In this document: positions 16,975 to 35,085 of the stretch, one piece after another | How the letters are laid out: each line of letters starts with the position of its first letter | Position numbering within the stretch: the first letter of the stretch is position 1 | Assembly: GCA_903927025.1 (NCBI GenBank) | Contig: CAIYLG010000045.1 | Span: 1 to 64,000 of the forward strand | Reading direction: 5' to 3' | Source: an uncultured Armatimonadota bacterium | Lineage (GTDB): Bacteria; Armatimonadota; Fimbriimonadia; Fimbriimonadales; Fimbriimonadaceae | Length of the DNA stretch: 64,000 nucleotides | Notes under the pieces: model-generated | What the model was told of the DNA's origin: nothing | What the model saw: only the letters and a program-made list of their open reading frames with translations | The model's database searches: none | Position numbers and translations under genes: made by a program

Positions 16975-18135
16975 TCAGACTCCAGTCTGCCAACTCTTCC
17001 AGTAGGCCGGATCCTCAATTGCCAGCGCCTGCTCTGTGAGCTTGAAGGGATGGAAGGTGTCTACCATTACTGCCAGTTCCTCCGTTTTTGTTGCACCGAG
17101 CGATGCTTCAACCGCGCCCGGCTGAGGGCCATGAGGGATCCCAAGTGGATGCACTGTGATGCTTCCTTCCTCGATCCCCTTTCGTGATCCGAACTTATCG
17201 TTGACGTAGTAGAGAACCTCGTCTGAGTCAACGTTGGAGTGGTTGTAAGGCACCGCGATAGCCTGCGGATGATAGTCCAGCATCCTCGGACAGAAGCTGC
17301 AGATCACAAAATTATGCCCGTCGAACGTTTGGTGAATGGGTGGCGGCATGTGCAGCTTCCCAGTTATTGGTGAGAAGTCGTGAATGCTGAATGCGAACGG
17401 GAACACGTATCCATCCCAACCGACAACGTCGCAGGGATGATAGGGATAGTGATAAAGAGTCAGCCGGTTCCGCGCCCGTATGAGGACAGAGGTTGGCGTT
17501 CGGTCAGTGTGCACTTGAAGCGCTGTCGGAACTCGAATGTCGCGCTCTGAATAGGGCGCATGCTCGAGAAGCTGACCGAATTCGTTGCGATACCTTTTGG
17601 GGATCGAAATCGGGCCGAACGAGTCAATCGCAATCATTCGAACTGGAAGGTTTCGGAATTGAAGTCTGTAGATTGTTCCCCGAGGGATCACCAGGTAATC
17701 CCCTGGGAAGAACTCGAGATTGCCAAAAATGGATTCCAGGGTCCCTTCACCATCGTGGATGAAGAGGCATTCATCGCCGTCTGCGTTCTTGTAAAACGTG
17801 TCCATCTGCTCGGCGACCAGAGCCTGCGACCAGACCACATCCTGGTTTCCCATCAGCGGGATGCGACCGGATACCGCTGAACCCATCGGTGTCATGTGCG
17901 CTGTTTTCAGGTGGCGATGACGCAGTGGTTCTTCAGCAACATAAGTTGGCGCAACGGAACCCTTGTCTTCAAAGCCTGTGACGTCAGTCGGCTGATGACA
18001 GTGGTAGAGCGTCGACATTGGCCCGCTGAATCCGCGAGTACTGAACAGCTGCTCGGTGTAAAGACCCCCATCCGGCTTGCGGAATTGGGTGTGGTGCTTG
18101 TGGGGAAGTTCTCCTAGGCTAACGTATCGCGGCAT
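16975..18135 (-). CDS. hmgA: homogentisate 1,2-dioxygenase family protein
   Basis: 386 residues matching the bacterial homogentisate dioxygenase branch: N-terminal LGELPHKHHTQFR, the cupin strand FFPGDYLVIPRGTIYRLQF, the metal region PYNHSNVDSDEVLYYV and HPLGIPHGPQPG. The enzyme opens the homogentisate ring with Fe(II) in tyrosine catabolism. A very strong ribosome site (GGGAGGAGG, 5 bases) precedes ATG 18135. No other tyrosine-catabolism gene is in the window. Confidence 0.88.
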   Translation of the reverse strand: MPRYVSLGELPHKHHTQFRKPDGGLYTEQLFSTRGFSGPMSTLYHCHQPTDVTGFEDKGSVAPTYVAEEPLRHRHLKTAHMTPMGSAVSGRIPLMGNQDVVWSQALVAEQMDTFYKNADGDECLFIHDGEGTLESIFGNLEFFPGDYLVIPRGTIYRLQFRNLPVRMIAIDSFGPISIPKRYRNEFGQLLEHAPYSERDIRVPTALQVHTDRTPTSVLIRARNRLTLYHYPYHPCDVVGWDGYVFPFAFSIHDFSPITGKLHMPPPIHQTFDGHNFVICSFCPRMLDYHPQAIAVPYNHSNVDSDEVLYYVNDKFGSRKGIEEGSITVHPLGIPHGPQPGAVEASLGATKTEELAVMVDTFHPFKLTEQALAIEDPAYWKSWQTGV

Positions 18136-18288
18136 CTTCGCCTCCTCCCGTATTCTACTAGGAGCCCTTCACCCGTTAGATGACCAGGGCAACTTCTCAG
18201 CCGGAAAGAAAAAAAGATAAAAAGCCCCTTAAGTTTCTTTGTGAACGTCCCTACAATGAATCACACCCGCTCTTTGGGGAGAAGGGAA

Positions 18289-18370
18289 AGACAGAAAACG
18301 GCACGATAGGGGAAACCCTTACCACGCAAAGCCTAGGGTCTTGGAGAGAGACAGCCGGGTTGCCTGTCTG
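18289..18370 (+). ncRNA. cyclic-di-GMP-I (GEMM) riboswitch, compact form
   Basis: Conserved elements in order: CACGATAGGGGAAACC (18302-18317), ACGCAAAGCC (18323-18332), GACAGCCGGGTTGCC (18350-18364). The last two are near-exact GEMM-I signatures. P1 can form from GGCA (18300-18303) with TGCC (18361-18364), extended by AGACAG (18289-18294) with CTGTCT (18364-18369). The usual GNRA-capped stem is replaced by a few bases and P3 is very short. A second AGACAG at 18349-18354 can pair with the same CTGTCT, giving a competing hairpin that could act as switch. It ends 15 bases before the FlgM-like ATG. Confidence 0.7.
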
Positions 18371-18384
18371 AAATCGGAGTAGTT

Positions 18385-18654
18385 ATGCGGATTTCAGACA
18401 CAGAGATTAAGAAGATTATCAGCGGTCCATCAACCGCCATCGTCGATGCCATTGTCGAGACCGGCGTAGAACACGTTCGGCTAGAGAACCAAAAGCTCGT
18501 GGAAGCAGTTTCAGCGGAAGTGCTTGCGATGACAGATCGAGAAGAAATGATCGAAGAGATTCGAGCCCAGATTGCTTCTGGTCAGTACAACCCATCCGGC
18601 GAAGAAATCGTGGATGCGATGCTGAGACGAGCCATCGCCGACAACTTCCGATAA
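18385..18654 (+). CDS. FlgM-like anti-sigma-28 factor
   Basis: 89 residues, cytoplasmic, no signal peptide. Residues 50-85 (DREEMIEEIRAQIASG, then QYNPSGEEIVDAML) match the FlgM core that wraps sigma-28: charged helix, I-x-x-G-x-Y, then an S/D-x-x-x-I helix. The N-terminal half is a predicted helix with ISGPSTAIVDAIVETG. Length is typical (80-100). It follows the riboswitch directly, so c-di-GMP should set its expression. Its natural partner is the WhiG/FliA-type sigma factor at 34312. Family call from motif reading. Confidence 0.65.
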   Translation: MRISDTEIKKIISGPSTAIVDAIVETGVEHVRLENQKLVEAVSAEVLAMTDREEMIEEIRAQIASGQYNPSGEEIVDAMLRRAIADNFR

Positions 18655-34311: not shown

Positions 34312-35085
34312 ATGCTTCTTTCTCCAGAAAATCTTAAGAACGCTTGGGCAGACTTTTCAGTCTACAGAAAGCCGCTTGCTCGCGCCGACCTTATTCAACA
34401 CTACGCCTACCTCGTGAAGGTTACGGTGGGACGCCTTGCCGCGTCCTTGCCTGGCGGTTTGGAAAGAGAAGATCTTATCAGTGCTGGAGCTGTCGGGCTC
34501 ATCAAGGCAGTCGATCAGTACGACATCACTCGTGCCGTTAAGTTCGAAACATATGCGATCGCGCTGATTCGCGGCTCGGTTCTGGAAATGCTCCGTGAAG
34601 AGGACTGGGTGCCTCGTTCAATTCGCGAGAAGCTGAGAGCACTTGATCGAACAGTGGCCCTCCTGGAAGTCGAATTGGGCAGACCCCCATCCCCCCACCA
34701 AATTGCGGAGCGTATGGGGATCTCCGAACAACAGGTCAGCGAACTCATGGTTCGGACGACCCGAACTTCAGTTCACAGCCTAGAGGACGTTATCGGCTCT
34801 GGTGATGACGGTATCAAACTCGTTGACCTTGTCGTCGACGAAGGCAATAACACCGACAAAGAAATTCAAGGTCGAGAGCTCCGCCGTATTCTTGTGGATG
34901 GCACCGACCGATTGCCGGATAGAGAAAAGCTAGTCGTCGCGCTTTATTACCATCGTGGCCTCACCTTCCGCGAAATTGGCCAGGTCCTCGGAGTAAGCGA
35001 ACCTCGCGCTCATCATCTCCACTCTCAGGCCATGACCCGTTTAAGATCACACATGATCCACCAGGGCATCTCGCAGCCCTGCTAA
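34312..35085 (+). CDS. RNA polymerase sigma factor of the FliA/WhiG (sigma-28) family
   Basis: 257 residues: region 2 (LIQHYAYLVKVTVGRLAASLP, then GLEREDLISAGAVGLIKAVDQYD, FETYAIALIRGSVLEMLREEDWVPRS) is the FliA/WhiG signature; region 3 RPPSPHQIAERMGIS; region 4 DREKLVVALYYHRGLTFREIGQVLGVSEPRAHHLHSQAM. The region-4 recognition helix has RAHHLHSQ where flagellar members usually have RVSQLHSQ, hinting at changed promoter choice. No flagellar genes are near. Natural partner of the FlgM-like protein at 18385. A 227-bp upstream gap precedes it. Confidence 0.93.
   Translation: MLLSPENLKNAWADFSVYRKPLARADLIQHYAYLVKVTVGRLAASLPGGLEREDLISAGAVGLIKAVDQYDITRAVKFETYAIALIRGSVLEMLREEDWVPRSIREKLRALDRTVALLEVELGRPPSPHQIAERMGISEQQVSELMVRTTRTSVHSLEDVIGSGDDGIKLVDLVVDEGNNTDKEIQGRELRRILVDGTDRLPDREKLVVALYYHRGLTFREIGQVLGVSEPRAHHLHSQAMTRLRSHMIHQGISQPC

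Follow-up and report, generated by a model that had tools for sequence, protein, structure and literature searches.

We searched a 64,000-nucleotide stretch of DNA from an uncultured Armatimonadota bacterium of the Fimbriimonadaceae (hereafter the window) and found a c-di-GMP-I (GEMM-I) riboswitch aptamer directly before flgM, the gene of an anti-sigma-28 factor. From the sequence, we propose with a probability of roughly 0.8 that this riboswitch controls FlgM translation as an ON switch. The window is part of a 197-kb contig in a genome of 5.25 Mb that is 98.4% complete, and the relatives of its proteins carry the names Fimbriimonas, Fimbriimonadaceae and Armatimonadetes MAGs, which places the organism in the order Fimbriimonadales. 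The riboswitch class is known; what would be new is a compact, receptor-less member of it that has a new target and an expression platform in which the coding sequence takes part in the masking. The first-pass annotation knew of no GEMM riboswitch controlling FlgM, and we agree as far as the titles and abstracts of the searchable literature go: these held no description of a riboswitch with flgM, with an anti-sigma factor or in Armatimonadetes, setting aside the original GEMM papers, whose gene lists may mention flgM. If true, this arrangement would give c-di-GMP a direct, RNA-based hold on the abundance of the anti-sigma factor controlling late flagellar genes, in much of the phylum.

The aptamer and its pairing with flgM

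The RF01051 covariance model matched positions 18290-18367 on the forward strand over its full length with 41.1 bits (cmscan, E = 1.3e-4) against a gathering score of 35 bits, which bears out the GEMM-I assignment made by the first-pass annotation. A search of the 5.25-Mb genome showed this to be its sole GEMM-I copy. The aptamer is composed of the following parts:

18290-18367 (+), c-di-GMP-I (GEMM-I) aptamer, above the gathering score of the RF01051 covariance model
18289-18294 (+), P1 5' strand AGACAG, read from the sequence, of which AGACA pairs with UGUCU at 18365-18369
18307-18321 (+), P2 hairpin with a GAAA (GNRA) tetraloop at 18312-18315, from the cmscan alignment and a loop census
18324-18333 (+), conserved core ACGCAAAGCC with the equivalent of Vc2 A47
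18336-18356 (+), compact P3 (GGGUC...GAC-AG-CC) in which the canonical tetraloop receptor is absent
18362-18369 (+), P1 3' side, GCC and UGUCU, the switching strand

P1 sequences differ among the homologues yet still pair. P2 had been described as having no GNRA cap, which proved mistaken given the GAAA loop in the window and GNRA loops in 68 of 69 homologues in the census. The description of P3 as tiny was right, as the cmscan alignment has 6 nt where the model's variable part has 16. No UCUAA-type tetraloop receptor was found in the P3 of any of the 69 family members; this canonical receptor is a feature of a type I subset and is not required for the c-di-GMP-I class, although affinity may be below that of Vc2 as a result. 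Compared with Vc2 of Vibrio cholerae (RF01051), the element is alike in its aptamer core, ligand-contact bases and GNRA P2 loop. It is unlike Vc2 in its compact P3 without a canonical receptor, in a P1 3' strand that pairs into the coding sequence and in having an anti-sigma factor as its target. With positions mapped to Vc2 numbering on what we take to be the Vc2 sequence, the equivalents of G20, A47 and C92 are G, A and C in the window and in 68 of 69 homologues. A G20A change has been reported to permit cGAMP binding (PMC7288161), and because G20, A47 and C92 are kept, c-di-GMP rather than cGAMP is the expected ligand.

Comparison of this locus across related genomes, as proposed in the first-pass annotation, revealed both a conserved gene order and a covarying helix, which is described below. 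Soil and freshwater Armatimonadota carry a c-di-GMP-I aptamer directly before flgM. Within the Fimbriimonadaceae, 68 of 85 genomes have a GEMM-I match, and 69 of the 72 matches lie directly upstream of flgM with a spacing of 13-87 nt. In five further genomes that have a strong FlgM match and no covariance-model match (G015, G001, G071, G027 and G063), a sub-threshold aptamer is recognisable by eye. Among the strong-FlgM genomes lacking a model match, flgM is clearly without an aptamer in only one genus (G045-G047). Beyond the Fimbriimonadaceae, where it was scored by a FlgM profile match downstream of the aptamer, the pairing recurs in the order's remaining families and, at several loci, in further Armatimonadota classes. 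It is extremely improbable that the match arose by chance or represents some unrelated RNA element. Nothing except the modest score of 41 bits would favor this, and it is already contradicted by the conservation of an element that is above the gathering score, unique in its genome and situated alike in most members of the family and order.

Other GEMM-I copies were observed as well. Second copies with far higher scores (67-80 bits) occur in three genomes (G032, G002 and G034; loci L002, L003 and L004), where they carry the UCUAA receptor element and have no FlgM gene downstream; the next long open reading frame after the second copy in L002 and L003 is about 490 aa. Close pairs of GEMM-I elements, tandem or near-tandem, are present in other Armatimonadota classes (G208:C116:12661-12861, G226:C297 and G227:C32). 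A Fimbriimonadaceae-type aptamer with flgM was also found in a record titled Methanoregulaceae archaeon (L168, JADZEW010000031.1), most likely reflecting contamination or mislabelling of that MAG.

The expression platform and the proposed direction of switching

Two complementary strands flank the ribosome site of flgM:

18365-18375 (+), first sequestering strand UGUCUGAAAUC (P1 3' strand and leader), an 11-bp perfect complement of 18390-18400
18376-18379 (+), Shine-Dalgarno sequence GGAG, read from the sequence, in the hairpin loop
18385-18654 (+), flgM, an 89-aa anti-sigma-28 factor (PF04316, 38.3 bits)
18390-18400 (+), second sequestering strand GAUUUCAGACA, flgM codons 2-6

The 11-bp hairpin that they form encloses both GGAG and the AUG (18385-18387) in its loop, and the minimum free energy structure of the window leader includes it. 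P1 and this sequestering helix are mutually exclusive because UGUCU serves both. The AGACA motif is present three times, at 18289 in P1, at 18349 in P3 and at 18396 inside the coding sequence. The first-pass annotation had suggested that a duplicated AGACAG offers the P1 3' strand an alternative partner, which was right in kind, as it is the P1 3' strand that switches, but the main partner is the third copy in codons 2-6 and not the copy in P3.

We propose that when c-di-GMP is absent, the P1 3' strand and leader would pair with flgM codons 2-6, locking the Shine-Dalgarno sequence and the start codon in the loop of the 11-bp hairpin. Binding of c-di-GMP would close P1 (AGACA:UGUCU) and the hairpin would lose four or five base pairs, leaving a residual 6-7 bp that the ribosome could open. 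More FlgM would be made, which would sequester the FliA/WhiG sigma factor. This ON direction is deduced from the covariation of the helix and from its dismantling on P1 closure; taken with the folding model described below, the most likely effect of c-di-GMP is to switch on the translation of flgM.

The sequestering helix covaries in the group of 44 members that we call MxISD-type by their protein start (35 distinct rows). In-register pairing in the 44 members reaches 84.9% over the eleven positions, versus 25-47% when the strands are slid by 1-4 bases. The 35 distinct rows have 324 paired cells versus 312.6 +/- 2.7 when leaders were swapped between species (0/5000). This covariation falls at synonymous codon positions of flgM: the third base of Ser4 and its leader partner are UA in 27 cases, CG in 4, GC in 1 and GU in 1, and TCA accounts for only 12% of Ser codons in the window genome. 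Against our explanation stands the z-score for the folding energy of the complete leader, which reaches only -1.6.

Bare Shine-Dalgarno pairing probability is a poor read-out of the two states because this sequence sits in the hairpin loop, and the read-out used was the opening energy of the whole ribosome site. With P1 forced to form as a stand-in for the bound state, in a model that leaves tertiary contacts and the order of co-transcriptional folding out of account, the opening cost is reduced by 3.76 kcal/mol on average versus 0.53 with the coding sequence shuffled (Wilcoxon p 1e-11). The window hairpin itself is predicted at -14.9 kcal/mol when intact and at -4.5 to -6.1 with the bases used by P1 withdrawn from it. 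The riboswitch could instead act as an OFF switch, if, with ligand bound, the ribosome remains barred by P1 together with what is left of the leader:CDS hairpin, or if P1 closure promotes mRNA decay, so that c-di-GMP would lower FlgM and raise sigma-28 activity. A 6-7 bp hairpin around the Shine-Dalgarno sequence and AUG is still formable in the bound window RNA, and mean bare Shine-Dalgarno pairing changes little between states in the window clade. However, the bound-state opening cost is lower by >0.5 kcal/mol at 40 of 44 MxISD and 22 of 25 other loci, and an ON switch agrees with the usual repression of motility by c-di-GMP, making the OFF direction unlikely. Vc2 has also been described as a gene-on switch (PMC12564702).

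Outside the MxISD group, other pairings were considered. Family f3 differs in that CUGUCUCC, its P1 3' strand, pairs directly with the Shine-Dalgarno sequence GGAGGCAG, and the individual shuffle p was < 0.05 in 8 of 15. At the 25 other Fimbriimonadaceae loci the P1 5' strand looks anti-Shine-Dalgarno-like by eye (GACUUC or GACCUC with GAGGUC), and its pairing with the Shine-Dalgarno sequence at these non-MxISD loci was no better than in shuffles. The duplexes between a P1 strand and the ribosome site in family f2 were likewise without significance against shuffles. The idea that a P1 strand also serves to mask the ribosome site is well supported for the window clade, supported for f3 and only suggested elsewhere.

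FlgM, its presumed sigma factor and its promoter

The first-pass annotation called the gene behind the aptamer FlgM-like, and its Pfam score is indeed over the FlgM cut-off of 25 bits; the open reading frame at 18385-18654 is the one FlgM above this cut-off in the genome. The NCBIfam FlgM equivalog (TIGR03824) scores 24.1 bits, below its cut-off of 40.75. This counts against our explanation and indicates a divergent FlgM-domain protein, filed outside the equivalog. A FlgM profile of the family matches Aquifex FlgM (1rp3/1sc5, E 1e-5), whose structure is of a complex with sigma-28, and the C-terminal region is homologous to that of FlgM in the Aquifex aeolicus FlgM-sigma-28 pair; to our knowledge, no riboswitch is known for the Aquifex gene. 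The presumed partner and the promoter position are:

18229-18257 (+), flgM promoter position, with the ancestral sigma-28 register TAAG-N15-CCCTACAA at 18230-18256
34312-35085 (+), FliA/WhiG-type sigma-28, presumed FlgM target (TIGR02479, 222.4 bits, cut-off 189.6)

The sigma factor gene, whose product also matches Pfam sigma-70 regions 2, 3 and 4, lies 16 kb downstream of flgM, and its role as the FlgM target is presumed from sequence.

Upstream of the aptamer, most family members have CCCTAAAG-N-GCCGATAA at the same place (69 upstream regions, by eye), which is the sigma-28 consensus TAAA-N15-GCCGATAA, the elements of which are quoted in PMC8325347. In flagellated relatives, flgM would therefore depend on sigma-28 for its transcription and on c-di-GMP for its translation, and its product would hold sigma-28 in check; with the sigma-28 promoter, this would make a negative feedback loop gated by c-di-GMP. 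In the window, the same position now also reads sigma-70-like, TTAAGT-N17-TACAAT, and the promoter assignment in this genome is putative. The promoter is changed in other members of the window clade too (TAAG-N15-ACCTACCA in G020 and TAAA-N15-GCCTATAT in G018), and either sigma-70 took over in this clade or the sigma factor changed specificity. The -35 recognition helix in sigma region 4 reads SEPRAHHLHSQ here versus SESRVYQLHTQ in flagellated relatives (loci L222-L236). We observed the altered helix in G000, G020 and, in part, G018, and the flgM promoter is changed in the same genomes.

Promoter searches were also carried out on a larger scale. The strict pattern TAAA-N15-GCCGATA was not clearly above the reversed control in seven Fimbriimonas genomes, flagellated ones included. 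Upstream of open reading frames in 0.86 Mb of the window's own genome, the relaxed sigma-28 consensus (<=2 mismatches) gave 1 match versus 7, 0 and 0 in controls. The clade-specific motif TAAR-N16-CCTAYMW showed no enrichment, and the larger TAAR/CCTAYMW counts with spacings of 17-19 are artefactual, arising from the 27-nt windows used.

Genomes without a flagellum

Searches of the window genome for FlhA, flagellin and rod/hook proteins all came back empty, against 5-6 rod/hook matches in flagellated relatives. Four close relatives (G007, G018, G020 and G021) are also without FlhA and rod/hook proteins and retain the aptamer, FlgM and the sigma factor; the G007 assembly is a single 5.23-Mb contig. 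F. ginsengisoli has been contrasted with likely motile, flagellated relatives (PMC5629041).

One explanation would be that, flagella having been lost, the riboswitch and FlgM no longer have a function and are decaying remnants. It would fit the missing FlhA, flagellin and rod/hook proteins, the altered sigma-28 promoter of flgM and a sigma-28 consensus that is not enriched in 0.86 Mb or, in its strict form, clearly so genome-wide. However, the window genome and its four flagellum-less relatives all keep P1 along with the aptamer, FlgM and sigma factor. FlgM in this group is under purifying selection (dN/dS about 0.1-0.25, with synonymous sites near saturation), FliA is a single open frame in 4 of 5, and the window aptamer outscores many from flagellated genomes. 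A separate pair of genomes (G009 and G016) has a degenerate FlgM and the aptamer is gone, demonstrating that loss does happen once the system is released. We consider it improbable that the window locus is such a relic.

The usual FlgM checkpoint is secretion through the flagellum. Export by this route is impossible in a genome without FlhA, in which the window organism is unlike Aquifex aeolicus, and the riboswitch would then be the evident input. We tentatively suggest, as a possibility held at a little under even odds, that in flagellum-less Fimbriimonas the c-di-GMP riboswitch has replaced the secretion checkpoint as the main input of a free-standing FlgM/sigma-28 module, and that the sigma factor, with its altered -35 recognition helix and the altered flgM promoter, controls a non-flagellar programme.

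Such a module would run parallel to RsiG-WhiG of actinobacteria. In the RsiG-(c-di-GMP)-WhiG system of Streptomyces and Rubrobacter, c-di-GMP binds the anti-sigma protein, and WhiG of Rubrobacter controls type IV pili (PMC8325347). Both cases would have c-di-GMP controlling a FliA/WhiG-type sigma factor via its anti-sigma factor, non-flagellar uses included, but here the target of c-di-GMP would be the mRNA of the anti-sigma factor, which is FlgM, not RsiG. RNA-level action of c-di-GMP on flagellar genes, the sigma factor SigD among them, is shared with Clostridioides difficile, where a c-di-GMP riboswitch precedes the early flgB operon that includes the SigD gene; in that organism flgM stands apart from this operon, as a late gene under a SigD promoter of its own, and the paper reports no riboswitch at it (PMC7438776). 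Loss of flagella with the switch kept provides a natural experiment in which the roles of sigma-28 and FlgM without a flagellum become testable, and which bears on whether c-di-GMP control of sigma-28 via an anti-sigma factor evolved twice, once by protein (RsiG) and once by RNA.

Finally, we note several features of these loci. FliA is split over two frames in G021 (G021:C45:149578-150352, L237), reflecting either a pseudogene or an assembly error. The divergent neighbour of flgM in the window, at 16975-18135 (-), encodes a homogentisate 1,2-dioxygenase-like cupin protein (PF20510/PF04209). The degenerate FlgM fragments of the two flagellum-less Fimbriimonas without an aptamer (L220 in G016 and L221 in G009) apparently lie at the same locus, with the divergent hgmA-like gene alongside, and this cupin gene adjoins flgM in many Fimbriimonadaceae.
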